DNA of 64,000 bases from Hermatobates lingyangjiaoensis (lineage: Eukaryota; Arthropoda; Insecta; Hemiptera; Hermatobatidae). The notes beneath the pieces are model-generated. The model was given only the letters and a program-made list of their open reading frames with translations, was not told the origin of the DNA and ran no database searches. The stretch's first letter is position 1. Each line of letters opens with the position of its first letter. Positions 24,971-46,791 of the stretch are shown one piece after another. Position numbers and translations under genes: made by a program. The stretch covers positions 62,001-126,000 of the forward strand of contig JAPFBL010000324.1 of NCBI GenBank assembly GCA_026182355.1. Reading direction: 5' to 3'.

Positions 24971-25016
<46 letters not shown>

Positions 25017-25261: not shown

Positions 25262-25408
25262 TAAATGAAGCAATAAACAATTAAAAAATTAAAAAATAAA
25301 AATAAATAAAAAAAATAAAAATTAAAATTAAAAAATAATAAATAAATAAATTCTTAAAAAAAAAAAATAAAATAAATAAATAAAAAAAAAAAATAAATAA
25401 ATAAATAC
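25262..25408. repeat. A-rich (AAAT)n low-complexity tract
   Basis: The plus strand is nearly pure A with regular T, within the 3' region of the Penelope-like element. It has no coding content. Confidence 0.85.
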
Positions 25409-25413
25409 TTAAA

Positions 25414-26990
25414 TTAACGGTACAAGTTAAGGCCAGGAGGAGAGCGAGCTTTGAGAAGACAGATAATTGCCTCCTCTGAAGCTCTTAAAGTAACCCGAGA
25501 AGACTGAACAGGGATATGATTAAGGACTTGGACCCGGAAGCAGTGATTAAAATCCAGTCCATGGGAATTAGAGTGGATAGCAATAGGAAGGTTTTTGCGT
25601 TGACCAACGGAAGCCCTGTGACCATTCATACGTAAGTTGAGCTGCGTAGAGGCCATACCAACGTAGAATGCATCACACTGGGTGCAGTCCAAACGGTAAA
25701 CGCAATTAACCGAGGTGCATGAGGTGTGGGGAGGACAAGGGTAGTTAATATTGCTATGGGGGGAAGTAAAAAAGGGATTAGGGTTTATGATAAGACAGGT
25801 TTGGCATCTGCTCCGTCCGCACTCCAACATTCCCCTCCCAAGTGTAGGGTTCAAGGGAGAGTGATGGGAGAAAATGCCTCTGAGGTTCGGTGGTTTGCGA
25901 TATGATAAGGAGGGGGCTTCAGGAAAAATAGATGAGGTAGAAGGAGAAGAGGAGAGCAATGGGAAAAACTCCTTAATAACCGAGCCAATCCTATGAGCGC
26001 CAGGGAAAAAAGTGGATATCAGGAAAACACTATCAGTGTGGTCTTTTCTGGGTACGTGCCGGTGAACTATTTCAGCCGGCACGACACGACTATAAATGAC
26101 ATTGGAAGGGTAGCCACGATCAATTAATTTTTCTTTCAAACAGTTAATGTGGGAACTACGGTTTTTCAAATTATTACAAATCCTGTAGATGCGGATGGAA
26201 AGGGATCTGGGGATTGCTTTTTTGATGTGGGTGGGATGGCAACTACTGTAGTGGAGGTACTGCTGTGCATTAGTAGGTTTTATATGTACAGAGGTGGAGA
26301 AACTGCTATTGTTGAGGGTGACATCAACATCAAGGAAAGTAATTTTATTGCTGGACACTTGGTGGGTGAAGGAGATGGAGGACGAAAAGTTTTGGAAGGA
26401 AAGTAGGAAGAGGTTTAACTCATGGGTACCATGTGGCCAAATGAAGAAGATATCGTCAATGTAGCGAGTATAAAGAAGGGGAAGGAATTGACGATCAGAC
26501 AGAAAAGATTGCTCTAATTTGGCCAAGAACAAATTAGCAAAAGAAGGAGCCATAATAGTGCCCATCGCAGTACCCTTGGTTTGAAGGTAAAAGGCACCAT
26601 CAAACTGGAAGGCATTATGCTTCAGGACAAATTCGGCTAAGGAAACTAGAAAATTGGTAGAAGGAGTGAGGGGGGGAGTTCTGAGTTCAAGAAAGTAACG
26701 AAGGGAATTCAGTCCCTCACTGTGTTCAATATTAGTATACAGAGAGGTGACGTCCATAGTAACCATGAGGAGGGGATGGGTGAGGTGGGGTGGGATCGAG
26801 AAGTTATTGAGGAGATTGAGGAAGTGGAAACTGTCTTTACAGTAGGAAGGCTGACTGCGGACTAGGGGTTGGAGGAAGTAATCAACAAAAGCAGACAGTC
26901 GCTCTGTGAGGGAACCATAACTGGAGACTATGGGTCTTCCAGGAGGAGGTGAATCAGGCATTGAGAAAGGCAAAATTCCTTATGAATTTT
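25414..26990 (-). pseudogene. Penelope-like reverse transcriptase / GIY-YIG endonuclease
   Basis: The long ORF (about 519 residues from the internal Met at 26973) reads as a Penelope-type reverse transcriptase. It has PPGRPIVSSYGSLTERLS near its start, motif A DVTSLYTNI (about residues 74-82), GTAMGTIMAPSFANLFL (about 134-150) and the catalytic YIDDIFF (about 171-177). Next comes the family-typical KPTNAQQYLHYSSCHP. The C-terminal GIY-YIG-like nuclease has NCVYRLDCTQCDAFYVGMAS with the arginine of LNLRMNGHR. An ending near NLYR at 25414 is usual. The N-terminal part is in another frame (27170-26985: SDSTFYLSLP, YLLPKIHKEF), so a single-base indel near 26985 breaks the ORF. It is inactive as it stands, though the rest is remarkably intact, which implies a young insertion. 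Confidence 0.9.
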
Positions 26991-27190
26991 GGGAAGGAGG
27001 TAGAAGACAGGACATCGGGGATTGGAAGGTATTAAGGTATTAATGTCGTCGGGTGACAGACCCTCAAGGTGGGCCCGGTCATTAAGCAGCGATTTAAGTT
27101 TAGAGAGGAAATCGGAATATGGATTATTAGGGAGGGATAGATAAAAGGTGGAGTCAGACAACTGCCTCATGGCTTCACGGTGGTAAACCG
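26985..27190 (-). pseudogene. Penelope-like ORF, N-terminal part in shifted frame
   Basis: The peptide TVYHREAMRQLSDSTFYLS to RCPVFYLLPKIHKEF is the region immediately upstream of the GRPIVS motif in Penelope elements. It continues in a different frame from the main ORF, with the break near 26985. It ends abruptly at the (TA)n run, so the true start codon is lost. Confidence 0.8.
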
Positions 27191-27214
27191 TAAATATATA
27201 TATATATATATATA

Positions 27215-28007
27215 GACAGACAGATCAACTGGTGAAAGCTTTTCATTAGACTCTGAAGACCTCGAATTGGTTTTTTTTCTTATTTTCGTAGGCAACTCTG
27301 TTTAAACATGTTGACCCTTGTTTTTTTCTTTAAAATCAATATTCTGGTAATTGTTTTATATATTTTTAAAAAAAATATTTAATAATATTTAAGGTTTTTA
27401 AATTCAAAATTTAAACAACACTCATAAATTTGAAAAAGCAGAATGAATCTAATCTCTATAACAAAAAATACTTTAAAATCTTTTCTGATTAATCTCTTGT
27501 CCATTTGACAGGTTTTGGCATTAATTCCATCTTCAGAGAAGTTTTTTAATTAACAGTTTTTTATTTTGTAGGGTTATAATCCGATAGCCTATTCGCCAAC
27601 ATATTTGACCAACTATTGCACAATTATAATTCTATTTCATTACTTTTGCAGATGTATTTAATATGTTTTAATTTGCTATTGTCTGTCATCGCTGTTTCTG
27701 TCTTGACTGTCTCTCTGTATTTTTCCTAACCTAATATGTTGGTTAGTAGTTTAAATAAGTCATCTGCCGGGTGATTAGTTTGTTCGTTTATAATGCTATT
27801 ATTTTATGTTTAAATATTTCTAACTTTCTCTTATTTTCAGTCTTAGTAATTTATGTAATAAGCCATCGATTTCTGTATACATACGCTGTTGAATGATATA
27901 CAAAATTGAAATTAGTATGTTGTTTACAAACATGAAAGTGTTCATGATGAACTTACACTATATAAATGTTTGTACATTTTGGTAGCAGTCCTTCCTTTAC
28001 ATGCATT
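27215..28007. other. AT-rich interval, no gene A exon found
   Basis: I searched the minus strand for the GH16 landmarks expected here (CTGD.., PPV.SAR, FRYGRV, GDWVYP) and saw none. The minus strand at about 27495-27535 reads ctgaagatggaattaatgcc and then 'aaaacctgtc', a decayed hammerhead-like core, so even this part is partly repeat-derived. Confidence 0.5.
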
Positions 28008-28176
28008 ATTGAAAATTACAGCAAACTTAGCTGATACCTGTTTCCTAATAAGCTTCTCAATTTTTCGAAATAATACTCTCGTTACTGGGTAGACAACATA
28101 ACAAGAGTTTTATTTAGAAAAATTGAGACGCTTTTTAGAAAATAGGTATCAGCCAAGTTCGGTGTCATTTTCAATT
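28008..28176. repeat. Palindromic element
   Basis: Arms of about 70 bp (attgaaaattaca, cttagctgatacctg, cttctcaattttt) are inverted around 'cgttactgggtagacaac'. There is no ORF, and a TA-rich run follows. Confidence 0.75.
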
Positions 28177-28594
28177 ATATATAATATATATTTTTCAAAT
28201 TGGAAACGTGATCTAAACTGGACATACATAACGTCAAAATCGAAGAAGAGTAACAGAAAAAGTACATAAACACTCTTGCTAACTCAAATCTTTGGACAAT
28301 TCGTCTTTGGGAGAAACGAGAGAAGGAAACCTAGCACTCTAGAGATTGTATTTTGTTTTTCTCCAATTTCCTTTTGATTCAATTACATTTAAATCACCTT
28401 TTATTGCTTATCTTTATTTCATTGTTACATCTTCTCTGTTACATTCTTCAAAATAGGCGTTAATTTCTGTTTAACTGACATTTTTTCATGATACCAGTTC
28501 CTCTCTTGAAGATTAACAGAGTCGAAATATATTGAAAGTGTGGTGCCATGGTGTATTGTTTAAATTCGTATTTCTTTCCGCTTTTAATGCATAT

Positions 28595-28832
28595 ATATAG
28601 TTCAATGTAGAAAAAGAAAGAGAATTAAAAACAGACACTTACAGTCTCTATCTAATCTTCGGTTTGAACCGTCTTTAGGAGAGATAAGAGAGGGAAACCA
28701 AGCGCACTGGTTCAGGTTGTCTAAACTAGTTTCCCTCTCTTATCTCTTCTGAAGACGGTTCAAACCGAAAATTAGAGACTGTAAGTGTGTGCTTTTAATT
28801 TCTCTATATTTCTTTTTCTACATTTAACTATA
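28595..28832. repeat. Palindromic element
   Basis: Arms of about 100 bp, running from 'aatgtagaaaaagaaa' through 'cttacagtctct' and 'cggtttgaaccgtctt' to 'agagagggaaacc', are inverted around 'gcgcactggttcagg'. A tail 'tttgtccgtttcggatcg' leads to (TA)n. It resembles the termini of the element at 29159-29802, and a half copy seems to lie at 28200-28340. Confidence 0.75.
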
Positions 28833-28882
28833 TTTGTCCGTTTCGGATCGTATTTCCGACGAAAAATTATATATATATATAT

Positions 28883-29091
28883 AACACTATTTTTCTTTTC
28901 TATCGAGGTTTGGTCTAGCTTCAATAATTCAACACCTTTAAGCCGACGTTTCGTCTATATTTGTAGACATCTTCAATTTCAGGGCTACATCAATACAGAA
29001 TTTAATTGCAATAACATGAAACATAATTTCAAACATTACATGAAAGTTATTGAAGCTAGACCAAACCTCAATAAAAAAGAAAAATAGTGTT
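28883..29091. repeat. Palindromic element with hammerhead-like core
   Basis: Inverted ends of about 45 bp ('aacactatttttctttt', 'gaggtttggtctagc', 'ttcaataa') surround a centre. There the minus strand reads TTGAAGA, a GTCTA..TAGAC hairpin and GAAACGTCGGC, closely matching the core of the element at 20263. (TA)n runs lie on both sides. Confidence 0.75.
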
Positions 29092-29158
29092 AAATATATG
29101 TGGTCGAGATAAGGAAAACATTCCTATATATATATAAATATATATATAATATATATAT

Positions 29159-29802
29159 GAGTTCGAGATTAACAAAGAACAACATACAAAGTAGGGAAAC
29201 ACACTTACAGACTCAAATTTTCGGGTAATCCGTCTTCAGGAGAAAAGAGAATGGGAGACCAAGCACGTTGTAGGCGCAACGGCAAGTAACCAACCCGGCA
29301 ACCGCCAGTGCTGTCAACCGTACCCGGTCTTAAAGTATAAAATTAGGAGAAGATATAAACAGAAGCTCAGATAAGCAGTACTGGTTGGGTAAAACTATAA
29401 GTAGGTGAAAAATTATAAACAATATAAGATAAAAACAAACTATAAGAAACAAAAATAATGATAGAGAAAAGAAGAAAAAATAATAAATAAAAATAAATAC
29501 AATACAAAAAACTTGCATTGGTTGTTTTAGTAAATAAAAGATAGAGACTGAATAAAAGGGTAAGTATGGGAAACTAGTTAAGAATAAGAATTTAGAAAAA
29601 TAAAATAGGATAAAACAAACTAGTAGTAAGTGAAGAAGACAAAATAGATATACACAAAATATACGAAAGAGGAAAAAAGAAATAAGTACTAGAGAATAAA
29701 GAATACTGGAAAAAAAGTACAAAAAAAACGGATTACCCGAAAATTTGAGTCTGTAAGTGTGTTTCCCTACTTTGTGTGTTGTTCTTTGTTAATCTCGAAC
29801 TC
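29159..29802. repeat. Element with about 80-bp inverted ends and A/T-rich interior
   Basis: The ends ('gagttcgagattaacaaag', 'gtagggaaacacacttacag', 'caaattttcgggtaatccg') are inverted at 29159-29243 and 29728-29802. About 480 bp of A-rich sequence between them gives a spurious hydrophobic minus-strand ORF. The tail 'tttggatcgtatttcg' after the right end is shared with the element at 28595. Confidence 0.75.
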
Positions 29803-29840
29803 GTATTGTGTCCAGTTTGGATCGTATTTCGTTTTATCAG

Positions 29841-29872
<32 letters not shown>

Positions 29873-30130
29873 CTTTAACACATAGAAAAGAACACAGAAA
29901 GACACTACAGAACTCACTTCGATATTTCGACATCCGTCGTCATCGGGAAGAAGTGCGAAGTACTCGCGTTGAGAAGCAAGCTGCTACTCAACGCGAGTAC
30001 TTCGCACTTCTTCCCGATGACGACGGATGTCGAAATATCGAAGTGAGTTCTGTAGTGTCTTTCTGTGTTCTTTTCTATGTGTTAAAGTGTTTATTGTCCA
30101 CACGGACCTTTCATTTTATTCGAAGTATAT
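29873..30130. repeat. Near-perfect palindrome with hammerhead-like core
   Basis: The arms of about 105 bp are nearly identical when inverted around 'gagaagcaagctgc'. The right arm reads CCGATGA (30014-30020), GAC-GGAT-GTC, GAAA (30032-30035), 'tatcgaagtgagt', then 'tgtctttctgtgttc' and a tail 'gtccacacggacc' before (TA)n. It is the closest relative of the 3' end of the Penelope-like element. Confidence 0.85.
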
Positions 30131-30149
30131 ATATATATATATATATTAT

Positions 30150-30339
30150 TGGAGGGATTTCTATTTTTCCTCTCCTCCGCTGGGGGGCCGCATTGCGGTG
30201 GTTTCACGAGTTACTCTGGAGGCCAGTAGCAGTTTGCTTCTCAACGCGAGTACTTCGCACTTCTTCCCGATGACGACGGATGTCGAAATATCGAAGTGAG
30301 TTCTGTAGTGTCTTTCTGTGTTCTTTTCTATGTGTTAAA

Positions 30340-30342
<3 letters not shown>
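30150..30342 (+). repeat. Single-arm copy of the 29873 element plus GC-rich 5' piece
   Basis: From about 30234 to 30342 the sequence repeats the right arm of 29873-30087 almost exactly. The 80 bp before it is GC-rich (ctccgctggggggccgca) and not palindromic; it may be internal sequence of a longer parent element. (TA)n follows. Confidence 0.7.
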
Positions 30343-30371
<29 letters not shown>

Positions 30372-30373
<2 letters not shown>

Positions 30374-30988
30374 ATTAATTTACCACAATGAAAACAATTT
30401 TTAAAACAATGCTCTAAGGCCTTTCGTTAACACATCTTCGGAGAGCAAGTGAACTAAAAAAAACAAAAATACTTGTTAACTTGGCTGATTGAAATTTCCA
30501 GAATTGATGGCAACCCTGAATGTGTTTAATAATGAAGTCTTCAATCTGTTTAATTATCCCGTTAATCAAAACTTCATCTAATTTGTAGAGTCCTAGGCTA
30601 TTGTTCATCAACCTCTCATAAAAGTTCTTTATGAGCGCACTTTCTACGATATTTCTTCTTCTTTCTGAAAGAAGATTCTGAAATCTTTCTGAAAGAAAGA
30701 AGAAGAAATATCGTAGAAAGTGCGCTCATAAAGAACTTTTATGAGAGGTTGATGAACAATAGCCTAGGACTCTACAAATTAGATGAAGTTTTGATTAACG
30801 GATAATTAAACAGATGAAGACTTCATTATTAAACACATTCAGGGTTGCCATCAATTCTGGAAATTTCAATCAGCCAAGTTAACAAGTATTTATTGTTTTT
30901 TTAGTTCACTTGCTCTCCGAAGATGTGTTAACGAAAGGCCTTAGAGCATTGTTTTAAAAAATTGTTTTCATTGTGGTAAATTAATCCA
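30372..30988. repeat. Very long palindrome, about 300-bp arms
   Basis: The arms 30372-30671 and 30689-30988 are inverted copies with few differences around a short purine/pyrimidine-mirrored centre ('ttctgaaagaagattctg'). An intact transcript would fold into a hairpin of about 300 bp. Near each outer end is 'cgaagatgtgttaacgaaag', a possible decayed core. (TA)n lies on both sides. No ORF is convincing; the minus ORF 30414-30611 and its mirror are part of the arms. Confidence 0.85.
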
Positions 30989-31039
30989 TCTATTATATCA
31001 AGTGTTATTTTGATTATTATTCATATATATATATATATA

Positions 31040-31047
<8 letters not shown>

Positions 31048-31071
<24 letters not shown>
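31048..31071. repeat. (GA)n microsatellite
   Basis: A GA run of about 24 bp follows a TA run, at the edge of another short fragment with 'cctgaggacgacc' and 'gtttctgtctatgtgtcac'. Confidence 0.8.
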
Positions 31072-31440
31072 TTGACCCTCCGTCAATTCACTTCTTCTCC
31101 TGAGGACGACCACCAATTGCAAATTGAGTCTTTGTTATGTTTCTGTCTATGTGTCACAGTTTATTTTAAGCATATGTATATGTATATACATAAGATTATT
31201 ATTCACAGTGGGTATTAAACCTTCTTACCTACTTATGTAGTGCTATTAGATCTCCAATCTTGGATCTAATATCTAAGATAGCGGTTGTCCAGAACAATAT
31301 TGTAAAAAAAAAATAAAACTGAACTAATAATAGCATAAAGAACATGAGTCGTTATCATGGAATACACTAAGAAGGAATATTCTGAAGAATAATATCTTTC
31401 TAATACGTGGATTAAATAAAAATAAGTGGTTCTCGAGTAC

Positions 31441-31706
31441 CGGGGAGGCTGGCATGAATATTGAGTGTTGCCAACGCAGTCGATTGATGGCATTATTAAA
31501 GGGTTCCCAGAAGATGACTGCCCCAGAACAGGGCTGCTTCCCCTTCACTAAAGTCACTGATGGTTTGCAGACAGAACTACTTGAAGGTTCTTCTATCATT
31601 GTTGGTTCTTTGATAGGTTCTTCTATTACTTCAACAGTTGAAGGAGTTTTGAGGAAATCTTTTACATTCCAGCTGTCATTAAAACTCAACTCGTGATCAT
31701 TGATCC
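31441..31706 (-). CDS. Gene A exon: linker fused to GH16 N-terminal block
   Basis: The acceptor 'tattgttgttag' takes in 1 nt from the WSC3 exon and reads 266 nt to the donor 'TCCCCG|gtactc' (phase 0 exit). Residues 314-358 are an acidic, Pro/Ser linker. Residues 359-402 are the GNBP-type start: the paired cysteines of VCKPS...QPCSG, then VIFWEPF and RWQHSI. This single exon joins the WSC part to the GH16 part, so the fusion does not rest on an assumed splice between two families. Confidence 0.85.
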
Positions 31707-34700
31707 CTAACAACAATAAAGATATATGATTAATTGATGAATTACGTTCTATAGACTATAGAAAACATAAATGACGTCAAAAGAACCTGTTTCATGAATC
31801 AACATTCTCCAGTTGCCACCACAATAATATTCCGGTCCAATAGGACAAGCTATATAGCACTGATTATCAGCCACCTTTAAATGTTCACTGGGTCGAACAT
31901 TGCCGCAGTAGCATTGAACTCTGAAATATATATTATTTATGAACATACATTTTTGTATTGATGACGAGGTATGACAGTTTTACCTATTTCTAATATAAAT
32001 CATGCTAACCTCAGTGGTATTAACAATATGCATGTATGCATCTTGAACCCTAGGCTACAAGAACTGAACAGTTAAATTCACACATAAATGTGTTTATATA
32101 CATATATATGTGATATGTATATATGTGGCTATAATGCAAAGGAGTACCATATAAAAAACACATATTCTTTTTTATAAACTTTTTCTTATAAAGAAGACAA
32201 ATTAAAATATTGTTCATATTTATAAAAAACTATCCAGTTAAATGTTTGTTCCTAAAGATCTGACATCCAGCAGTTCAATAATAACCTACATATACAACTT
32301 CTTCATATTTGCATTAACATTGTAATTTACTGTGGCTGAAGTCACTCCTACAAAATTATTCTAGACTTAATTTAACTCCCGCCACATTTTTTTATTTTGG
32401 ATAAACTAACAAATGAAAATGAAATTGAGTTAGGCTTTGAAAATGTAAGTTATTAAACATTATATAACGTGATTGTAATATAATGATACAATTTTAAATT
32501 ATAAATCATTTAAGTGTAATTTAGAACATGAAAAATTATAATTTTATATTTAGGTTTTTTATTAGATTTTCGTTAGGTTACCAATTAATTTTAAATAAAA
32601 GTATCAAATTCATAAAAAAAATAGGAAAATATTATAATTTAATAACAACTCCTTTCTTACAGTTTAGTTTAATTTTAAACTAATTTAATAAAATAATTAA
32701 TAACTTTAATTAAAATTTGAATACTTTTTAATGATATATTAATTATTTTATTTATAATTAATATATATGTCATATATATTTGTCATTTTATAAGTTATTT
32801 TTTATCCACCAAAATATTAATGTAATCTTAGCACACGGTTACTACAACACATCACCCCTAATAAATAAGTACATTCTTTGAGTAAATTATACGACCCTAA
32901 GCTTGCTGTCGCTGAGGTTTATGAAGAAACACAATTTATTCAGTTTTATTGGCGTATAAACTTGTAAACAAAGTTCCTAAAATTATTATGAATTTTACTT
33001 TTATACCTTCTATTTATTTAAGTATTGCTTCAGCAAAAAAATGGCTAATATTTGGTACCAACTATTTGATAGATCCAGTCTTAACTCAATTCACTTAAAA
33101 AAAATTCATTTTTTTTAATTTCATTAATTAAATCAGTTCCTTATGATCTTGAGTACTGGAACTTTTAATTAATAAATATTATTGTCAGAACAATCAAGTT
33201 TCACCACTACTCACTGCATAAAAAAGAGTGAATCATAAATTAATTTATATGGTACTTCTAGAAACAAAAATATTGTAACTGCAGTAAAAATATATAAAAA
33301 AGGTTAAAATTTAACAGGGAATCCACGGTCTCTATAACTGTTAATGAGAGAATAATAATAATTCTTTCTCTATTTATAAGAAAACTAAATTTGAATTGAG
33401 GATATTACCGCCATATGCACAGTAAACTGGGGATAGAATCGTCATGCATTTATTTTGAATTCAAAGAAAAATTAAATTTCTTACTTATATTCAACGCCAG
33501 AATATTGATAGCCCAATGAAAGGCAAATATTGAGGCATTTCTTTGGAGAATTCGTGGAACGCAACCATAGTTCTGTTCCTGACAAGATCGTTGTGTCCCC
33601 GTCGTCATTATAGCAGCCAAGTAATTTACCTTTTGGGGAAATGTCTACAACAATAGTAAAGAATAAATAATTATAAAAATAACACAATATTTAAAAACTG
33701 ATTTGTGTTAATGATGCACTTAACTAAAAAATTATCTTTCATTTTAAAACACTATCATCTAATGAGAGAATTCGATAATATTTCTTAACAACATCAATTT
33801 TTCATAGGTAATAAATTTAGCTACTGTCCATTTATCGAATTCTCTCTGATTAAATTTAATAGATCAAATATTATAAACATTAGTAACGGGCTCTTCAAGC
33901 TTGATACTTTCTTTAGAGGGCAATAGCCTTTTTGAAGAGGGTCGACAACCTTTACTTTTTTTTACTTTTTACTTTTTTTTACTTTTTTTTTCACTGTATT
34001 CCCTTGTTTCCCCAAACATTCATCTGTGGGCATTTGTGCTTTCCTGCACTTTACACCCTTTTAAAATACCACTCTTCCCTCCCACTCCTCTTAACCCCAC
34101 ACCAAGTGTTTCTGCATCTAGGGTTTCAGTTGGGTTTTTGACTCTGACGAAGACCGCTTGTTACGGTTGAAATATCTTAGTCTCTCTTTTTCCCCTTTGA
34201 TATTGTTGTTTGATCATTGTTTGTTAGTATATGTTAGTATATTAGTGAGAATCTTGAGAACTTAGAATCCATTGATATCCGGGATTTAATTAAATTTATT
34301 GTTCTCTCAAGATGGTTTGAGTGACCGGCGGTGGGTGAGAATAGCCCTTTTTCTTTTGTGGTCTCACAAGAGGCCGACTTGTGGCCTATGTGCATTCTCT
34401 CTTGGGACGACCACTACAACCTAACCTAACCCAATATTAGTAAGGTTAGATTTTCATTCATACTGGCTTACCTGGAATTCCGGTTCTAAATATTCGAATC
34501 TTCAAAGGACCTCCACAACGAAGCCTTTTATCACCAGGGCACGGAATTGAACATGTTGACTCATTCCTTCTTCGATCTGATTTGATCTCGTCACCACACT
34601 GACATTGGGTTCTAGACAAATTAAATTTCAATTTACTAATATTTGAATTTTATAAATCTAATAATAAATTTATAATATAATAAGAAATTTCAATTTCAGT

Positions 34701-37700
34701 AATTATTTATTATTACCTCTAAGTTAAATGAATATCTGTCTACCACTCTGGTGTAAATTCTATCCGTTCTAATAAAATTTCTGATAACTTCATTATAGTC
34801 GCGCTATTTAACTTCAGAAACACTTAATTAAAGAAAAACGATAAAATAAAGAGCATTTTGTTCCTCAAACATATTATTTCATAAGCAATATATTTTACCA
34901 TCAATGTGTCCATCTCCAATCTATAGACTGAATTATTTAATACAACTATAAGAACATATTTATAACCTAAAGATGTTCACATTATGGTAAAAATTTATTG
35001 CTTATAAAATTGAGTAATTTAGTAATAAAAAAGTTTTTTTTTACATTATACATTTCTAAATTTCTAATTAAAATATATATTTACAGGTCATATTGTTTAT
35101 TTAATATTCATTCCACGTATCATTTTATATTATATAGTGATAAATTTATATGTAATTTATATTTCTTAGCTTTCTTTTCTTCACCAGAGATAATATAGTT
35201 AGTACATTTGCTTTGAATCAAACCTAATGTAAAAACAGAAAAATTTGAGTTGAAGGAATAACTTTAAGTTAACTCTTTTAACTCAAATATTTGTGTAATT
35301 TTTTTTATTTAAATCAAATATATTTGAGCCATAGCATCAATTAAAGCTTTTCTATTTCATATATAACTACATTTCTATCATTGTAGAATCTTCACCCTAG
35401 TCACTAGTCTGATAAACTGTCAAATTTCTTCCCCAATAAGGTGAAGGAAAAAAAACTAATAAACATAAATTAGAGGTATTTATCAATATACAATATAAAA
35501 TAATGAATCATGAATTATTAACACATGTATTTGTATTAACAAATAAATTTAATTCCAAAGAACCATCTTTTAGGAATGCAGTGTCATTTTTTTATAATTA
35601 TCTAAGAGTTCTCTTCATTAAAATGAAGCAGTTATAAGTTAAATTTGCTCAAATTTCTGTCCTAATACATTTATAGTATGGATTCCACAGTTGATTCCAA
35701 AAGTTCAGCATATAGAACTAGTATATTCAACTACTTATATGCATTTGATTAAAGGAAAAGAATAAAATATCTGTTTAACAATCATTTTTAAATACTTGTA
35801 GTATATGACTTGTAAAAATTAGTACTTCTAATATAACAATTAGCGCATGATCTAATAATGTACCGACTACTACTCGAGAATGGGATCATTACCATGATCG
35901 AAAATTGATAAATGATTTGAATCTATGATGTTCGTTCTTCGTGGTGCTTTTGATTTTGGGTATTATAGATATATTTCAATATAAACAAAGCTACATAGGT
36001 AAATGAAAAACACATTTACAGTCTCTAATTTTCCATTTGAACCATTATAAGGAAAGAATTCAAAAATAGACAAAAATAAAGAGAACAACTTTTATGTATT
36101 GTCTATTAACGTATAAACCACAGTAGGTTATCAGAAAAATGACTAAGGTCTCTCAACCAAAACAAGTGGTCTTCGTCAGAGTCACAATGATAGTCAGTCA
36201 GTATCTGACGAAGAGCACTCGTTTTGGTTGAATGATCACAGCCATTTTTCTCATTTCTTACAGTAGTTTAGACGTTGATTTTTATTTAAGACTAGCAAAC
36301 GTACCCGTCTTTGACGGAATCAAAAATTCTATTATACTTGGTATTCCAAAATATCAATTATAGTATTATACTAATACTACAATTAGAAGTTATAGAATAG
36401 TAGAAAATACCATTATTAGTACAGTGCTAAAAAAAAGCCTCTGTATACAAAGATTAGATTTTAAGTTAGACATACACAAATCTGCAATCAATGTTTCAGC
36501 TTTATACGAGTATGTCTTATGGTAGCAATATTTTGTGGACAAACCGACAGACAGAAATTATTCTAAGGATACATGTGGCTACTCTGAAGTATGAAACGTA
36601 AAGAAACTTGAAATGAGTTAGTTCTAATTAACGTGCTCCCAGTCAAAAGCTAGCACGCAAGCCACTGGGCTACTCTGGTTCCATACCTTACTTTATTACC
36701 ATTGTTTATATTACGCAAATATTAAATTAAAAAAAAATATTTTTGTTGTGTTTATTTATAATACATTTGCACTACTGTCATCGGCGAGCAAGCCAGCTAC
36801 TGGCTACCCTGGCTAGATCCCTTTACTTTATTACCATCTTTTATATTATCCACATTTTAAATTCAAAAAAATATTTGTTTGTTACATTTATTTATAATAC
36901 ATTTGCACTACTGTCATCGGCGATCACGCAAGCCACTGGGCTACTCTGGTCCCATACCTTACATTATTACCAGTGTATTTATTAAGCAAATATTAAATTA
37001 AAAAAAAGTTGACAGTTATATATAATACATAGCAAACGTACCCGTCTTTGACGGAATCAGAAGTTCCTGTTTTGGTTTATTGCCGTGTGCCTATTGCCTT
37101 TCGGCTATACCACGGAGGAATCAGAAGTTCCGTCATTTTTGGTATTTCAAAATGTCATTAGAAATTATAGAATAGTAGAAAATACCATTATTACTACAGT
37201 GTTAAACAAATGCCTCCAGCTAATACACTACATTAGCTGTCTGTCCTTCAGGTTCATGGTAGAAGAAAGAGTTGAAACCTCTGACCGTTGAGCATGTAAA
37301 CTACATTTGACCATGTGAGAAAAACTTGGTTTTGCTACCTTGTAATCCTGCGTTAGATGAAGTCTCCCTTTGCGACTTAGTTAACGTCATTGCGAAATAG
37401 ACTCTGACCGGACTTTGCAATCATTTCAACGTAAACAGACAGTGGCTCGGAATCAATGGTATGTGAAGTATACACACAGACTCCCCAATACCACATCCAG
37501 TCATTATGTCCGCCTCTATGGCATATCTGTGTAGAGCACGAAGTCAGAGTTGTGTCCCGTTGCACAGTTTTTAGGGCACTCATGTTTCGTAACATGAAAT
37601 TTGTTACTGCTACTAAATTGCAGCGTGATCGGTGCTACTACTTTAAGTTTTTACTCATGAGCAGGCAGTCCAGGAGAAATAAATTCAGAGTCAAGAAATT

Positions 37701-40700
37701 CAATTAGATAATGAACTGCTTCTTCATCACTAATCCAATATCTTTACTGACTTGTAAGTTCTTTCCTCGGCTTCATATAGCGTAAGAACTTTTTTGTTGA
37801 TTTTTCCTCCCTGTTCATATTAAGAGTTGAGAATTGCTCGTTTACAAAACATTTATTCTCAATAGATAGTACATCCTTAACTCTGTGAAACACCATTTCA
37901 ATGATGTCAAATACGCAATATATTCATATGCTCAATTGAAATTAAAATCAACTAACAATACCTACTTGCCACACCTGTGTATTTTCAAAACAAACTTGTC
38001 TGTGAAGTTAGGAAAATACAGCTAAAAGCCCCATAACTTCGCTTCTGTACTGAATTAATAATATATTTAGAGCCCATATTTTAAGTTAGGCACACACAAA
38101 TCCAGTGTCAATGTTTCAGCTCGCTATGTCTTATGGTGGCTGAGTTTACTTGTGACAAACATTTTTGCGTTAAACGTCCATAACTTCACTTCTACGTTGA
38201 ATTTCCAATCAATTCATAGCCTATATTTTAAGTTAGACCTACACAAATCTACTGTAAAAGTTTCAGCTTTATATGTCTTATGGTAGCTGAGTTTACCTGT
38301 GACAAAGTTTTGCGGACAAACCGACAAACCGACAGAAATTTTTCTAAGGGTGGATTCGGTTTCTCCAATGTATGAAACGTAAAGAAAACTTGAAATGAGT
38401 CAGTTCTAAGCAATGTACAGACAAAATCATTATTTTATTTATAAAGATATTTATTGTGAAATCTGGTTATATTGTGTATATTTGTTTATATTGAACTTTA
38501 GTTGCCGGTTTTGGATCGTTTTTTCACGGTTAAACTATATATGTGTAGGCTGAGATTACTACAGTATTAAAATAATATTGTAAAATCTCTGCAGTCTCCA
38601 CATGCGACTCTACAATTAAAGAAATCACCACAAAACTTCTTCATTTTACTTTGAATTATGTAGTGATTTCTTTAATATATGTATTCAAAATACTGTCATA
38701 ATATTTACTGTAATTATAATACTATGAGATACATAATTTGATTAATTTATTAAATATGACTAAATTCTTAAACAAATAAAAAAAAATGTAAGTACATAGT
38801 AATGAAATTTACCCATACTGAACCCCTGCGAGTCTATAACCTTCCCTCAAACATTGGCCAATACAAAACTCTGGAGTCAATAATTTTGGAAATTCCATAA
38901 GTTTGTCGGTAAGAATAGGTAGATATATAGAGTCAGCAAAACATCCAAGGTAGCTTTCAGGATGATCGTTACCCTCTTTCTCTAAAGAATAGAATTAAAT
39001 ACACATTTAAATAGTTAACTACATAAGTTAATATTATGGTATCCAATAAATCAAAATTTCCATTATTGTCTGATTATCTAGCTTAATGAAATTCATTTAA
39101 CAGCTAAAATAGAAATTTCAACTTCTGAAATACTCAATTCTATTATTTATATTTTCTAAACCATCAATGTGATCATCTTCAGTTTACAATTTAATTTCTT
39201 CTTCTTCAATTAAAGTTTTCCACAATTTTAAACACATTATAAAATTTAAATTCAACAAAATTTCAATAAGCGTGAATAATAAGCAATGAACAATAAGCGT
39301 GAATAATTTGAGCATTAGGCATTTTTTCTTTTGAGATTTGTAATTAAATCATATATGTGTTGCTCACTTTTCATTGAATTTCGATAAATTCTCTATGATA
39401 AAAAACTGGTTGAGGAATAGTCATACAAAAATAATACAACAAATAACAAAATTGTAAAAAGAAAATATAATATTTTTCATAAAGTTCATAGTTGATTAAA
39501 ATACTTTTTTTTGTAAATAGATTCATTTACTCTATTTACTCACATCCAGAAAATTGGAATTTGTAAATTAATAGTAATTAATTTAATTGTTGACAATTAA
39601 ATTAATAGTAGTTAATTTAATTATTGACAATTCGAAAATCCTGAAATTTTAAGATAGTAAAACTTAGAAAACAATTTATCCAACTTAAAAAAATACTGAA
39701 TTATTACAATTCAAAAAAATCTTATAGAGTTTACTATTAAAATACAAGTGATTTAAATTAATTCGAAAAAAATACTTCAATTAAAATATTAATAATAAAT
39801 TATTTTTAAAATAAAATATTTAAACAATTAAGAAATTAACTGGAAATATAAAGTACATTTGTCCAATACTGGGTTAATAATCACTCCATGTAGCAATGCT
39901 TTTATTTACATGAATAATCATTTGTGAAGTCAGACTTAATCACATGTTTTAATTAAAAGGGATAAGCGAGGTTTTGTAGTAAATCACTAAAAGTATTTTA
40001 TTACCATACCAATTAGTTTTGTTACATTAAATAACAACTACTATCTAATGACAATTTTGAAGAAGGTACTTCTTCTAATACAATGTTATTTTTTGATAGG
40101 AGAATTAATATTTATGTAGATATTAATGACTAATAAAAACGTTTTCTTCTTCTTAGAGTTTGGTCAGGGTTAATATACGAAATCACCTTTTCGCCAACAT
40201 TTTGTCTTTATTTTAAGACATCCTCAGGGCTATAAACTAACAAAAAACAATGGAAATTTGCATATCTAGTTTACAATCATCATAACAAATTCAAAAAACA
40301 TACTTACTCAAGGCTAGCTTCTAATTCCGGACCAATTTTTAAATTTGTTATGATGACCTGACCAGCTTCTTTCAAGAGATCACAGCGCCTCAAAGCAATG
40401 TACCCACAATGTAAGGGGACTACAATGTACCAGTCAGTGATTCACTACAGACCTTACAAGTAGTAGCGAAGTACGGTATTTCTTATCCATCTTACTGGTC
40501 TTTAATCTATCTATTCTAATCCCCCCACATAGGGGGAAAATTGAATAAGCATCTATTTATTGGAATAATATTTCTTTAGAAGTGCAAAAATGTTTTAATT
40601 GATAGCATTTATTTAATTGGGAATGAATTTTACCGGTTATGTCGTAGACGCTTATTCTCAAATTTCCACCACAAATCTGTGATTTGTCACCCTCACATCT

Positions 40701-43700
40701 TAAGGTACATCTTTTCGTCTCAGCCATGTAAGTTAAGGAAGGTCTTTTGGTATCACAAAAACACTCGTGTCTAAAACAATATTTAAATTCACAATTACTC
40801 CTTGCTTATTCAAACAAGTACATTGATTTATTAATTTTAACAGTAATTTAAATCAGTTCAAAGTATTATTAAAATTTACATAAGCATTTATTTCAAATAA
40901 AAAAATAAGACATATGCTTATATTAAGATTTTTATCAATGATACAAATGACTACATCAAAGTAACTGCTTTCTCTCTTTCGATATACTGGGAAAATACCA
41001 CTTTTAACCCTGTATGGACCTTTTAAATCGATTGTTGACGAAATAAAAGCGGATTTACCTATTCTGTCTTAGGAGTCCCCTATAAGAATGTGCTATTTGT
41101 GGTCTGTAAACTGTCTGCTAACCCGAATTAAGGAAACATGCTAAAAATTTACCAATACTCTAGAACTATCTCCACATACAGAACAAGCCTGCCGTAAGGT
41201 ACACCTCCTGGCTAGTGAAATTAAAATTAATTAAGACATTTTCTATAATTAATAGTGTGACTTTGATGGAACATCTTAGTCCCATCTCTCAACTTCTTAC
41301 TCTGATTAAACATTAATTTTTATTTCACTTAGTTGTTGAAAACAATTAAAAACCCATCAGTTGGGTTTTTGACTCTGACGAAGACCGCTTGTTATGGTTG
41401 AAAGATCTTAGTCTTGTTTTCCCATTTCATATTGTGGTTTGATCATTGATTGTTATTTCACTTGTTTGTGTGAAATCTTTATATATATCTTCAATTAAAA
41501 ATTAGAAAAATTAATCAAACTGGACACAATACGAGTTCAAAATTGAATAAGAGTAACACACAGAGTAAAAAAACACATTTAAAAACTCTTGTTTGTAAGT
41601 TACTCTTCTTCGATTTTGAACTTATATGTATATCAACCTTCAAACCGCAATAAGAACAAAAGCTGTTATAAAGTTTTTTGTTTTAAAAGTTGTTTTCGTT
41701 TACTTTACATATGCTCATGCTTAAATATGTCTCTTGGACAAATGATTTGGGAATTACCACCAGCCCACGGTTAAGTTGTTAGAAAACTAGAGCAGACCAG
41801 CTTAAATGTCGTGAACACAGAAGCTGCTGTGTATTTTAATGAAATATATTTAATATGCAAGCTTGTTTGTTGTGAGTTTGAGAGTAAACCTGTATTTATT
41901 TAAAATTAATTGAATCAAAAGTACATAAAATTTTTTTCAGAAATGAACAACACAGTAAATTTATTTACCCTTTATGTAGTCCAGCGTAATCCATTTCCTT
42001 CTCTTTACAATACTCTATACACAATTCAGGAGTAAGGCTATTTGGAAAATTTTTGAATTCTCCTGATAGTAACCTAGAAGTCTCAGATATTTCTTTGTAA
42101 CATCCAATGAACTTGGCAGCATCTAAAAAAAAAAAAAAAAAAAAAATAGATTTTTCTATTTAACATGATAGTTCATTTTGACATAAAATCAGTATCAGCA
42201 TTTTGTATTACGCTTCGCTCTTTTAGCGGGACTGAGCTTATACTAGTACCCAACTTCATGTAAGCCCTTACCCTCCTTAAATTCCAACCCTCTTCCTAAC
42301 CTCCTACCCTTACTCTCCTCCAAGGTATCCCTCTTTAGAGAAGATTACCAGAGGAAAACTTCCTAGAAGGCAACCTTAAATTCTAGTGTAGTCCTAAAAC
42401 TGTGGGTAGTGGTAAATCAGTAAACGATTTGTAAATAAATTAGGATGGAATCACTTTCAGATACGAGTTAAAGAACATTAACTTTTTTCAATGGTGAAGC
42501 TTCTGTAAGTCTTTTTCTCATTATACATGTTGTAGTATATATTGTGTATTTTTTTTTAATTTTTCTGGAAATATGACATTTATAGTGAATATATTAATAG
42601 CTTATTTTATTAAATTAACAATTTTTGAAAGAACTATAAAAATAATTAGATTCATCAAAGTGATATTAGTTCAAATAAACTTGCTTAGTTTACCTATATA
42701 AATTGATTGGTTATATCATAAAAATTTAAATGGTTCCTTATTTATTTCGGATTGTTCTTTAGGAGTTTTCTTTTCATCAATAACTGTGGTATTCGAATTG
42801 GAAGACTTACTCGGACATAGGCAAATATATTTGTCTCATTGTGAGCATTGCTTGTAATCTCGTTAGTTTTACATAATAGAGTGTTTAAAACATTTCTATT
42901 TTTGCCAGTGGAGTTTATCTGTATAAATAATTTAAAGTAAACATGAAAACTTAAAACAAATCTAATGAAAATAGCTTTGTTAACGGAAGAATTCTGTATT
43001 GAAGTAAATATTTCTGCTAAGATCCGTGAAAATTGATAGCCACACTATCAAATAATTTATTTCAATTAACATTTGAAGATTTAATATTTTATTTTTTTCA
43101 CTCTCTCGTTCTTAATATTTAATAGATTAAAAATGATTACGTAGTATTTCTTCAAAATAATTACTCAGTGGGGAAGGATAGATTTTGGAAATCTAATCAA
43201 ATAAATTAAAATGAACATTTACTTCAATAAATTAAATTTAATATATGATTTTATTAAATAGCATTAAAAAGATATTAGATGAAAATAAAGGTAAATAAGA
43301 TGGTTTAAGTTAGATTAGTCCCATTACCTACTGTAATATGTAGTTCTGCCAGAGTTGATCAAAATTGAGAAAACAACACTACCCAAGTTTGCAGTATAGC
43401 TTTTGATCGTTTATTTATACATCCATCTTTAGGAAGATTATCGATCAGCTGCTGTTCCCCATTAGCATGTTTGTAAAAATTGAACAAAATAATAAAAAAA
43501 AATTATTAAAGTAAGAAAATGTAAAAATAAATTAGTTTAACTGTCTGTATAGTGCTGCTCTTAATGTTTACGGACACTCAAAGAACTATTCATCTCAATA
43601 GGAAACAGCTTTACTAGCAATTTTTTTTTATATATTTATAATTTTATATTTGATTTTATTAAAGTATAATTATTTGATTTCCCATTAAAATTGTTTAAAT

Positions 43701-46700
43701 ATAAAGTTTGCATTTTACTATAATTGCATTATAATATTAATGAGAAAAATTCAGTTGGTTTTTTTTAACTCATGTTAAAGATTCTCATGTTTTAATAGTC
43801 TCTAGTTAAATTGTCTGCTTCCCTGTTAACTGAAGCCGGTAGCTAATATGAAATTGAGTTTGTATAAGTAATGTTGATCATTAGGTACTGTCCAAATATT
43901 TTGACAGTAAGAGTTAATTAAGACAGTAACTCCCACATATTAAAAAAATTCTCTATTTTTTTAACTTCTTTTTAACTATTTTAGTTTTTAAATGGTGTTT
44001 AACGGTGCTTTATTTAATTAAACACCTAAGATAACTTATGATAATTAACATTAAATAGATAAAACCTAGATTTTCTACATAATGTTATCATGACTGATAA
44101 TCAAATTATCATTTCTTTAGATGAAGTCGAATTCCCTACTTACTTAAGTAGATACTGTACGCAACTTGTAAAGTGACTGCTAAGTAAAATTTATGTAGTA
44201 CTAGATAAATGTTCCTCTAGCCTCTTCATACTTTTCGATTAATGTTTCTAACAACTTTTGTGGAACTAACAATAATGTTATTTTATGTAAAATGTTTATA
44301 TCAATAATTTTAAATCTTCCATTTATTTTTAACTATCATCTAAACTTTGAAATCTTGAATGTTTTTAGGCCTTGATTTTGAATTTGCAGAGTCTTTGTAT
44401 AAATTATAAATAGTTTTACGAGCTTCAAAATACTCAGGGGAACACGATCACTGAATTACTAAACTTGGGACCATCATCAAAACACTCAGGGGAACACCAT
44501 AACTGAATTACTAAATTCTGAGGTAAAATCGATAAACAAACAAAAGTCTCCACACAAATGAAGTTTTATTCAACATCAACGCGTTTCGAACACTTTGTGT
44601 TCATCATCAGAAAGACACCAAGGATGTGGTGCTGACGGGTTGGTCCAGTGAAAACAACAAGTAGAAAATGTTTTCCTATTTGTTGTTTTTACTGGACCAA
44701 CCCGTCAGCACCACATCCTTGGTGTCTTGTTGCTGTTGAATAAAACTTCATTTGTGAGGAGACTTTTGTTTGTTGATCCATTTTACCTCAGAATGAGTAA
44801 ATTCCACACAATTACGGATTGCACAACTAATGATTTGAATTACTAAACTTAGGACCATCATCAAAATACTCAAGGGAACACCATCACTGAATTACTAAAC
44901 TTGGGACCATCATCAAAATACTCAGGGGAACACCATCACTGAATTACTAAACTTGGTTCATCATCAAAACACTCAGGGGGAAGTTTATCGTTCAATTACT
45001 ATTTTTGGGGCCAAGTGGTCTTAGAAGTTCACCACTCTGCAGTAGTAGCTTTAGTCATAAATCACAATAACAGACCACTTTTGTAATCCTACATAGCACA
45101 GGTGATATTTTTTTAAGTTGTCTACAATTTAGTACCAAAAGAATGAAACAATAAGAAAAGTTTAAGTGATACAGTATAAATAAAATTAAGATAAATCAAC
45201 TGACTGTGAAACTAAATTAGCACAAATTATTGCCCTCAACGGTTTTCAAAACAACATCATTAATGTCACATTAATCTAATGGGACCTTCACTAGTTAATA
45301 GATCCCAGACGAGTTAGAGACTTCTATCAAAGGATATTCTAAGCAGAATAGATATTAATAAAAATTGTACAAATTTATTAAGTGTCCTAAGAACTTGAAA
45401 TCAAAGCAATACCTGTCACCCCAAAGAACCTTTTAGCAGCTGATTGGTAAAAAACAAAGCAATTTTCAACATTCGAAAAGATTAATTGTTATAATAAATC
45501 TAACAGATAGACTCCAATAAATACAAAGAAATAAATAAAGTTCTCAATAATCTAATATTTAGTTTAAAATCATCAAGAATTAATTATCAATTTTCTGATT
45601 TAGACCAAATATCCAAATCCGATAATTCGGTTTTATTTAAAAAAGATCTTCTTCAAAGATAAAAGGAAAACTTCCCTACAGCTTTCAACTACATTATCAA
45701 TGGTATATAAACGATTGATTTGACGATTTTAAGTTTCTAAATCTGTAAAACCAAACTGTGTATTCCAGGCTTAAAGAATACACTACAGAAGTAAGAGACA
45801 AATTATATTACTCTGTACTTATATTTATTTAAAATATCAAAATAGTCGAATAAATAGACTAACTAAGAAGTAAAAATTAATAACATAAAACAGAACTGCT
45901 TTTACCAGGGACGTATATTAGAAAAGCTTTTTGACCTTGAGCTATCAAGTGAAATCTAGCCGAAACTTTTGAACTATTCAAGACGTAAACACGAAAGTCT
46001 AGGGAAAGATGATGTTTTGAAATATAAAATGAAAAACTTGATAAGTTGAGATTTTATTATTAAACATATTAATAGTTATAATTAGTAATAATACAATCCG
46101 TCATACCTCGTAAAGTCTCAGAAAAACTCGACCGGTTTCGGGTCCGTCTGGATCCCATCTTCAAGAGCACCTAACTGACTGTGAATGTTATTTTCCTATA
46201 ACCTACCTACATATGTCATCTACAATGACTAATATTACTAACTTTCTAATATTACTAACCTCAGTGGAACTAACCCATTAACTATATTAATAGTTGTTGA
46301 TGATTTCGTTGTATGCAGTACTTGTCAGATGTTTAAGATCTGCCATTCGTATCTAATACAGTACATGTTTTAAAACATGGCTTAATTATTCTTACACAAA
46401 AAGTAACCAACAGCAAACATCACAAGATTGCACTGTCCACAAACAATAGAGGATTTCAACAATCTAATGCAAGTATTTTCTTTTTGTATAAATGATTATT
46501 TCATTAACACCGAACGGATTTAAGTAGCAAATAACAATAGTATAAAGACGATAAATTAAATAATGTTCATACTAACCATCTAAGTATTAATATATTTCCT
46601 AAAATGTCAAAATAAAGTTTTAAACTTTACAAATCTTACAACATATTAAATAATTTGTTTATAATTTACACAGTTCCTAGTATTTCAATAAACATTTTGG

Positions 46701-46791
46701 TTGTTAATAAGATTTTTATGGTGTTAGTATAATTCATAAAAATACCTGAATAACTTAGGTAGAGGACTAGAAGTAGTGGTATTAATTCCAT
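31441..46791 (-). CDS. Gene A, 5' part: signal peptide, three WSC domains, start of GH16
   Basis: Eight exons (46746-46791, 41969-42122, 40634-40770, 38813-38981, 34472-34611, 33485-33644, 31787-31920, 31441-31706) sum to 1,206 nt, exactly 402 codons, with all junctions in phase and GT-AG borders. Order: signal peptide MELIPLLLVLYLSYS (1-15); WSC1 (about 19-108), WSC2 (about 120-212) and WSC3 (about 222-310), each with eight cysteines and a C-G-G (or close) end; an acidic/Pro linker (VIEEPIKEPTMIEEPSSSS); and the first block of a GNBP GH16 domain (CKPSVTLVKGKQPCSGAVIF to WQHSIFMPASP, to residue 402). WSC modules bind carbohydrates in fungi and other organisms. Here they stand where beta-GRPs normally have CBM39. 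A secreted multi-lectin glucan-recognition protein is inferred. The next GH16 exons are not found, so the gene may be interrupted. Confidence 0.85.
31787..31920 (-). CDS. Gene A exon: WSC3, second half
   Basis: The exon completes WSC3 after an intron in the GxxY-K|V position: VQCYCGNVRPSEHL, then NQCYIACP and YYCGGNWRMLIHET. The four expected cysteines are present. The donor 'AAACAG|gttctt' leaves 1 nt, matching the linker exon. Confidence 0.9.
33485..33644 (-). CDS. Gene A exon: WSC3, first half
   Basis: The exon is 160 nt, phase 1 in and phase 2 out. It encodes ISPKGKLLGCYNDDGDTT, then KKCLNICLSLGYQYSGVEY. This is the GCY...C...C..GY.Y.G pattern that opens a WSC domain. Confidence 0.9.
34128..34225 (+). 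repeat. Single-arm element with hammerhead-like core
   Basis: The core is CTGACGA-AG-ACCG-CTTGTTA-CGGT-TGAAA followed by 'tatcttagtc'. It is the same family as 24841 and 41358, and lies in gene A's intron between WSC2 and WSC3. Confidence 0.7.
34300..34435 (+). repeat. SINE 3' end with CCTAA tail
   Basis: The block 'gggacgaccactacaacc' followed by taacctaaccc matches the tail of the SINE at 4887-5329, with a similar 'gtggtctcacaa' region upstream. It is 5'-truncated, with no tRNA head visible. Confidence 0.65.
34472..34611 (-). CDS. Gene A exon: WSC2, second half
   Basis: The exon is 140 nt, phase 2 in and phase 1 out. It encodes TQCQCGDEIKSDRRR, then STCSIPCPGDKRLRCGG and PLKIRIF. The donor is 'TTCCAG|gtaagc'. 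The four cysteines of the second WSC half are in place. Confidence 0.92.
36108..36276. repeat. Palindromic element (diverged)
   Basis: The arms ('aacgtataaacca', 'caaccaaaacaagtg', 'gtcttcgtcaga') are inverted around 'acaatgatagtcagtc'. The inner edge carries CTGACGA-AG, as in the 24841 family. The arms differ at several positions. Confidence 0.65.
36293..36628 (+). repeat. Interspersed repeat, short copy ('CAAACGTACCCGTC' family)
   Basis: It starts 'tagcaaacgtacccgtc', 'tttgacggaatca' and ends around 'aaccgacagacagaaatt', 'gaaacgtaaagaaacttg'. Both ends match those of the longer copy at 37030-38455, so this is an internally deleted member. Confidence 0.65.
36655..37010. repeat. Tandem repeat, period about 135 bp, about 2.7 copies
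   Basis: The landmarks 'ttataatacatttgcacta' (36757 and 36892) and 'ttattacca' recur every 134-136 bp. The array lies between the two copies of the interspersed repeat. Confidence 0.75.
37030..38455 (+). repeat. Interspersed repeat, long copy
   Basis: It has the same ends as 36293-36628, with about 1 kb more in the middle. The interior includes two internal repeats of 'acacaaatc...gtttcagct...atgtcttatggt' (about 38090 and 38245). No intact ORF is present; it may be a non-autonomous retroelement. Confidence 0.6.
38813..38981 (-). CDS. Gene A exon: WSC2, first half
   Basis: The exon is 169 nt, phase 1 in and phase 2 out. It encodes KEGNDHPESYLGCFADSIYL, then LTPEFCIGQCLREGYRLAG and VQYG. The donor is 'TATGG|gtaaat'. 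It has the same phases as the first-half exons of WSC1 and WSC3. Confidence 0.92.
40139..40358 (+). repeat. Partial copy of the 20263 palindromic element
   Basis: The copy has 'gagtttggtcaggg', 'aatcacctttt', a decayed inverted core ('acattttgtcttta', 'aagacatcctcaggg') and 'aaatttgttatgatga'. It is more diverged than the 20-kb copies. Confidence 0.7.
40634..40770 (-). CDS. Gene A exon: WSC1, second half
   Basis: The exon is 137 nt, phase 2 in and phase 1 out. It encodes HECFCDTKRPSLTYMAETKR, then CTLRCEGDKSQICGG and NLRISVYDIT. The acceptor is 'attgttttag' and the donor 'AACCG|gtaaaa'. Confidence 0.92.
41358..41490 (+). repeat. Single-arm element with hammerhead-like core
   Basis: The core CTGACGA-AG-ACCG..., 'ggttgaaagatcttag', and the shared tail 'gtttgatcattgattgtta' end in a TA run. 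It is very close to the copy at 24841. Confidence 0.7.
41969..42122 (-). CDS. Gene A exon: WSC1, first half
   Basis: The exon is 154 nt, phase 1 in and phase 2 out. It encodes AAKFIGCYKEISETSRLL, then LTPELCIEYCKEKEMDYAGL. The acceptor is a poly-T tract ending in 'tttag' (27 bp of pyrimidine). The first codon is completed by the G from the signal-peptide exon to give Asp. Confidence 0.92.
44437..44990. repeat. Minisatellite, period about 54 bp, split by an insertion
   Basis: Units of the type 'tgaattactaaacttggga', 'ccatcatcaaaa', 'actcaggggaacaccatcac' occur at 44437-44515 and again at 44836-44990. The palindromic element at 44516-44835 sits between them. Confidence 0.8.
44516..44835. repeat. 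Palindromic element, 'ACGCGT' family, with core
   Basis: Arms from 'gaggtaaaat' and 'aaaagtctcc' to 'ttggtccagtgaaaac' are inverted around 'aagtagaaaatgttttcc'. The minus strand of the left arm reads CTGATGA-T-GAACAC-AAA-GTGTTC-GAAAC-GCGTTGATG, the hammerhead-like core; the right arm lacks that block. After the right arm comes a non-palindromic tail ('ccacacaattacggattg'). The 12-mer tgaattactaaa lies on both sides, either a target duplication or minisatellite units. Confidence 0.8.
46746..46791 (-). CDS. Gene A first coding exon: signal peptide
   Basis: The ATG opens MELIPLLLVLYLSYS, a short hydrophobic leader, and the donor 'TTCAG|gtattt' leaves one G. Joined to the WSC1 exon it gives ...SYSD-AAKFIGCY. 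This exon was chosen because it has an ATG, a leader, a consensus donor and the exact phase needed. Cleavage is expected near the SYS/D junction. Confidence 0.8.

Follow-up and report, generated by a model that had tools for sequence, protein, structure and literature searches.

The 64,000-nucleotide (nt) window analysed here, positions 62,001 to 126,000 of contig JAPFBL010000324.1 (C324; window position + 62000 = C324 position) in the 910 Mb, 1,629-contig assembly of the bug Hermatobates lingyangjiaoensis (GCA_026182355.1), carries on its minus strand the gene g5, in which three WSC domains precede a GH16 domain of the type found in beta-GRP/GNBP proteins. GNBPs are a textbook class of fungal sensors in insects, with a carbohydrate-binding (CBM) head on a glucanase-like body, and WSC domains are known above all as binders of fungal walls. 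The combination of WSC and GH16 encountered at this locus, in the neighbouring genes and in other bugs is a real hemipteran variant of the GNBPs.

A first-pass annotation of the window had read eight minus-strand exons with GT-AG borders, and these were recovered exactly, with AG preceding exons 2–8, GT following all eight, and a total of 1,206 nt in a single stop-free frame of 402 residues. Exon 1 (46746..46791) provides the start codon and a hydrophobic segment judged by eye to resemble a signal peptide (MELIPLLLVLYLSYS), and ends in phase 1 at a GT donor. WSC1 is divided between exons 2 (41969..42122) and 3 (40634..40770), WSC2 between exons 4 (38813..38981) and 5 (34472..34611), and WSC3 between exons 6 (33485..33644) and 7 (31787..31920), assignments based on splice sites, Pfam and comparison with the sister genes described below. 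The three WSC domains expected from the 402-residue peptide were returned by Pfam (PF01822, E 8.5e-56, 186.6 bits, cut-off 27.8). Each module consists of two exons flanked by phase-1 introns, so that modules can be added in frame.

Exon 8 (31441..31706), which has a counterpart in each of four sister genes, contains an acidic linker followed by the start of a GNBP-type GH16 domain, and ends in phase 0. The earlier proposal that GH16 begins within this linker exon stands on alignment, the end of the exon matching the GH16 start of the WSC-GH16 proteins from Nezara, Nesidiocoris and others, but not on Pfam, which did not detect GH16 in the 402-residue piece. The body continues further downstream with exons 11 (24476..24718; LWLEP..., without the catalytic acids), 12 (22907..23052), 13 (21134..21235) and 14 (18692..18793; end of GH16 and stop codon), all on the minus strand and recognized by comparison with the sisters, exons 11 and 12 also by Pfam. 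Exons 11–14 (24718-18692) match PF00722 with 31.3 bits at a cut-off of 22.

According to tblastn, which for the gene row covered C324 1-60,000 and 62,001-306,000 of 405,882 plus part of contig C923, g5 (C324 108.8-80.7 kb, supported also by splice sites) is one of at least five WSC3-GH16 genes arranged in tandem on C324, all on the same strand and with near-identical exon lengths. The sisters are g1 (267.2-248.1 kb), g2 (232.8-204.1 kb), g3 (168.3-144.1 kb) and g4 (133.5-117.0 kb). In the host genome at least 16 matches to WSC exons were counted, at least 14 of them on C324. The 3' half of g4 lies within the window on the minus strand (60997-55016), with GH16 exons 10 (60831..60997), 11 (58981..59223), 12 (58309..58454) and 13 (56825..56926) identified by sister comparison and exon 14 (55016..55117), with the end of GH16 and the stop codon, by sister comparison and Pfam; the three WSC domains of g4, together with its exons 8-9, are situated outside the window, at C324:133524-127417.

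In g1-g4 the WSC exons 2–7 measure 154, 137, 169 (163 in g2), 140, 157 (160 in g5) and 134 nt, and the GH16 exons 9–14, all of which are present in the four sisters, 125, 167, 243, 146 (122 in g2), 102 and 102 (99 in g2) nt, the variable element being linker exon 8 with 206-266 nt across g1-g5. The exon phases were preset in the exon-finding script, so that agreement in phase is not independent; the evidence is provided by the lengths (free within limits), the splice dinucleotides and the frames. Exon 1 of g1-g4 was not located, and the acceptor chosen for exon 8 of g1 is doubtful. When joined, g1-g4 run through 661-671 codons without an internal stop (stop counted, exon 1 excluded), and in the g4 protein both the three WSC domains and GH16 score above the Pfam cut-offs. 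The eight-cysteine character ascribed to the WSC modules holds throughout, with eight cysteines in 15/15 modules of g1-g5; a CGG motif is found in 13 of these, the WSC2 modules of g3 and g4 deviating. Side features of the row include exon 9 of g2, present twice (C324:220487-220363 and 217668-217544; 99.2% identical, ~2.8 kb apart), exon 12 of g2 (C324:207115-206970), which leaves the frame of its sisters near the end and for which an upstream donor gives an in-frame exon 24 nt shorter, and a further WSC gene piece (C923:52265-48280), divided within WSC at roughly the same position.

Among g1-g5 the non-synonymous divergence (dN) is 0.16-0.37 and the synonymous divergence (dS) ranges from 1.3 to saturated, with rough omega values of 0.07-0.21 where defined. 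This may be taken as a rough sign of long purifying selection on all five genes, g5 included. The WSC1, WSC2 and WSC3 modules of the five genes cluster by position (two changes, the minimum for three groups), and consequently the three-module form seems to predate the tandem row.

The first-pass annotation had assumed an intact receptor gene in the window, which did not hold: g5, as assembled, is without two internal GH16 exons and is unlikely to yield a complete receptor, whereas intact examples are provided by its sisters in the row and by the related proteins of other bugs. The intron between exons 8 and 11 (24719..31440, minus strand) is devoid of the sisters' exons 9 and 10 (125 + 167 nt). 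When queried by tblastn with exons 9 ('DYEFV...') and 10 ('CTG...GDWVYP') of the four sisters, it gave a best match of only E 0.08, and in the same tblastn the g1-g3 exons, as a positive control, recovered their g4 counterparts at E 6e-15 to 4e-32. A supposed remnant of exon 9 was dismissed as AT-rich and repeat-like by eye (44 nt matched to g3 exon 9 DNA with 77% identity; E 1.8e-4 in a small database, 0.009 in a larger one). What the intron does contain is an open frame of 521 codons for a reverse transcriptase (25417..26979, minus strand; RVT_1, E 9.5e-09) and 24 pairs of inverted repeats, several being nothing more than TA repeats. Six hairpins have arms of 80-153 nt, and in five of the six the arms are 96-99% complementary. 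The hairpins (window 24720-31440), some with TA-microsatellite arms, are related to repeats elsewhere on C324.

Either g5 is freshly broken or the exons were lost in assembly. An even chance may be given to a recent pseudogene, in which a repeat-mediated rearrangement around the retroelement removed exons 9-10 and left the rest readable. The two exons are missing from the assembled intron in g5 alone of the five genes, the intron is rich in inverted repeats and includes a reverse-transcriptase frame, and the acceptor of exon 11 (ATGAG) appears weaker than those of the sisters. Furthermore, exons 9 and 10 amount to 292 nt in the sisters, which is not a multiple of three, so that skipping them shifts the frame; joined straight to exon 11 (phase 1), exon 8 leads into a broken frame. 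On the other hand, the remaining twelve g5 exons are open, with their splice sites kept and a low dN against a near-saturated dS as in the rest of the family, so any break must be recent. The same twelve exons speak for a loss during assembly at the long TA repeats and hairpins, an explanation with odds a little short of even, to which the six large hairpins lend weight as structures that may misassemble. Against it stand the continuity of the stretch, which was assembled with zero N, and the lack of any stray copy of exons 9-10 in the parts of C324 and C923 examined.

Outside Hermatobates, the suggestion that WSC be sought together with GH16 was borne out by 22 database proteins, counting isoforms, in which Pfam scans recognized both domains, GH16 in P0033 and P0046 lying just below the cut-off. 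A species name is attached to 16 of them, and all of these are Hemiptera, 11 species from aphid to stink bug: Nesidiocoris, Nezara, Rhodnius, Triatoma, Rhynocoris, Cimex, Macrosteles, Uroleucon, Lycorma and two Homalodisca species. The number of WSC modules extends from two (Cimex isoform X3; P0023, which may be partial) to ten (Lycorma), with one in a Triatoma fragment, an anatomy in keeping with the multivalency proposed at the outset. In public databases these proteins are mostly labelled uncharacterised or 'beta-1,3-glucan-binding'. WSC was present in 15 of the 33 proteins of one search, among the matches listed; the other 18 were without WSC in the precomputed domains and comprise six Hemiptera and others including thrips, a butterfly, flies, a bee, a sawfly and Orthoptera. 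No protein with a non-hemipteran name showed both domains in the precomputed annotation of the best 120 of 374 matches. This annotation misses GH16 in four of the 22 proteins (P0005, P0033, P0042, P0046), and matches were detected through 5-residue words in common, so that absence of the combination elsewhere is not proven.

These relatives also bear on the question whether the fusion might be a false join between a WSC gene and a neighbouring GNBP gene, a suspicion that could arise since the window case by itself rested on a single exon. The corresponding junction exon is kept in five tandem copies, and both domains recur in the 22 database proteins. Some of the underlying records barely exceed their reading frame (2,681 nt for 870 amino acids in P0002; 2,468 nt for 763), to be compared with genomic spans of 16.5-28.7 kb for g1-g4 (exon 1 excluded), and such short contigs look like spliced transcripts joining WSC and GH16. 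Five copies with near-identical exon lengths and 22 homologous proteins exclude chance, and a false join, by now highly improbable, was rejected.

The body of these proteins is a C-terminal GH16 domain with a laminarinase-like fold, as in beta-GRP/GNBP proteins, and a fold search with the whole model returned GH16 matches; the assignment of the WSC fold is based on sequence matches. The catalytic acids of GH16 are absent in g1-g5 and in 19 of the 22 database proteins (those aligned). CBM39 (PF15886) was not matched in the 402-residue window protein, in g4 or in any of the 22. The sole CBM39 match found in the host genome (C110:723574-723807, E 4.6e-7) contains one internal stop, and no GH16 was detectable within 10 kb downstream of it. 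The swap of the glucan-binding head inferred in the first-pass annotation is thereby upheld: three WSC domains occupy the usual place of CBM39, the GH16 body behind them is of GNBP type and non-catalytic, and the arrangement recurs across Hemiptera.

Like the CBM39-GH16 beta-GRP/GNBP proteins, which also occur in Hemiptera, the bug proteins end in a GH16 domain that belongs to one wider family and is devoid of catalytic acids; they differ by having WSC instead of CBM39, more binding modules and a linker between head and body. Another hemipteran GNBP with an altered front is GRP3 of planthoppers (CBM39-LDLa-GH16; Nilaparvata, Laodelphax), which has retained CBM39, added LDL-receptor class A repeats and lacks WSC. 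Animal WSC arrays are also known from oysters, where the partner is a kringle rather than GH16 (Ostrea: 13 WSC plus kringle). In the oyster set P0045, P0047 and P0049 combine kringle and WSC, with 13 WSC in P0045 and 12 modules cut from P0047; for P0049 the combination is based on precomputed domains. Yeast Wsc1 is a membrane sensor, and neither Wsc1 nor Kremen is known to contain GH16. Both have the eight-cysteine WSC domain with PAN/Apple fold, and in Wsc1 two aromatic surface clusters are required for function (PMC9024836). The nearest parallel in module number is a lectin of the fungus Serendipita indica with three WSC domains, described in the available part of its report as WSC-composed, with no mention of GH16 there; it binds long-chain beta-1,3-glucan, not short oligomers (PMC7816849). 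This lectin is absent from the module tree discussed below.

Taken together, the reading favoured here, with a probability of about 0.6, is that of a secreted hemipteran family in which a run of WSC modules replaces CBM39 on a non-catalytic GNBP-type GH16 domain, and which would bind fungal glucan and signal its presence. By analogy with known systems, the signal peptide would direct secretion of a protein composed of the WSC run (three here), linker and GH16 body. Several WSC modules may then attach to the fungal surface with high avidity, through its repeated beta-1,3-glucan or an adjacent wall polymer; binding of long glucan only, as described in the available account of the Serendipita lectin (PMC7816849), is as expected from avidity. 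The GH16 body, having lost its catalytic residues, should bind or signal and not cut; it might recruit a serine-protease cascade and so activate Toll and prophenoloxidase, as proposed for ordinary GNBPs. Published accounts state that the front domain of GNBPs binds sugar and the glucanase-like domain contacts proteases (PMC11084805), and that a cascade of serine proteases, set off by glucan recognition, acts on Toll and phenoloxidase (PMC11818254).

Several results weigh against this reading, in addition to the defect of g5. The closest solved match by sequence to these WSC domains is Kremen; WSC domains bind proteins as well, so that sugar cannot be taken for granted as the ligand. The WSC binding data considered here are fungal, and fungal modules group apart in the module tree. 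P0006, P0007 and P0059 (Nesidiocoris, Homalodisca) possess WSC but no Pfam GH16, although GH16-like pieces are discernible by eye in P0006 and P0007. Furthermore, in a GH16 tree of 41 rows (isoforms P0015, P0019 and P0020 as well as P0035 and P0040 omitted), g1-g5 form one group with support of 100/100, but a clade made up solely of WSC rows is rejected (p-AU 0.00015) and occurs in 0% of 200 bootstrap trees, since the Macrosteles protein P0021, which has no WSC, sits inside (98/84). The free tree also places P0024, an Apolygus mirid protein without a known head, and, weakly, P0038, a long-branch Homalodisca CBM39 protein, within the WSC group, and support for the whole WSC-containing group is only 49/96.

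The rival function, that of an extracellular-matrix, salivary or gut protein binding plant or self glycans and not of an immune receptor, is considered less likely. WSC does occur in other kinds of protein, such as Kremen and the multi-WSC proteins of oysters, and hemipteran immune repertoires are described as reduced (PMC5126049). The GH16 body nevertheless sits among the GNBPs and has lost its catalytic acids likewise, and two of four GNBPs of the mirid Adelphocoris rose on Beauveria infection, in an account whose available part leaves their heads unstated (PMC8012897).

As to the origin of the family, WSC rows plus P0021 are not rejected as a clade (p 0.193). In a second GH16 tree, from which P0038 and half of P0017 (the Cephus protein), as the longest two rows, were additionally omitted, 24 WSC rows group with P0021 and P0024 at 78/96. 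Three changes of the WSC label are required there, in agreement with a single gain followed by two losses. The simplest reading, supported but not settled and not a proof, is a single origin, close to the base of Hemiptera, that was followed by losses. P0021 shows a sushi-like front below the Pfam cut-off, and P0021 and P0024 may represent a second head swap and a head loss. The modules themselves were compared in a rapidly built tree containing 129 WSC modules, 15 from g1-g5 and the rest from 17 chosen database proteins, with few columns for so many rows. Fungal modules form one group (support 91) and the hemipteran modules need two changes; the idea that WSC was recently acquired from fungi was weighed and set aside, a late fungal source not being supported by this tree. 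Among the fungal proteins, P0051, P0061 and P0091 join WSC to PF03659, two of the three records being named alpha-1,3-glucanase or family 71. A broader proposal, put forward tentatively and with odds somewhat short of even, is that an early hemipteran GNBP swapped CBM39 for a WSC head and became the order's own fungal-wall receptor line, its valency tuned by the number of WSC modules (up to 10), and represented in Hermatobates by an array of at least five genes with diversifying WSC modules.

No published WSC-GH16 architecture was found among the matches listed in a literature search of titles and abstract starts, most subscription papers lying outside it. A study of spittlebug foam reports a low-scoring WSC-like fold match for one protein and calls WSC rarely described in insects (PMC12911473), and the candidates at a Daphnia locus that governs resistance against a bacterial parasite include genes with WSC domains (PMC9894429). 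In the excerpts available, hemipteran immune surveys mention GNBPs without WSC. In one on triatomines a protein counts as a GNBP if it has the classical N-terminal domain 'and/or' the glucanase part, and in one on a psyllid GNBPs are described as absent. Immunity surveys keyed to the classical head may thus miss or mislabel WSC-GH16 proteins. The Hemiptera, among them major pests and vectors of disease, have a parallel GNBP line with a different head, which offers a direct test of whether WSC, a glucan-binding module in fungi, serves fungal recognition in animals. If true, an early swap to a WSC head would account for the sensing of fungi by bugs in which classical recognition proteins are few.
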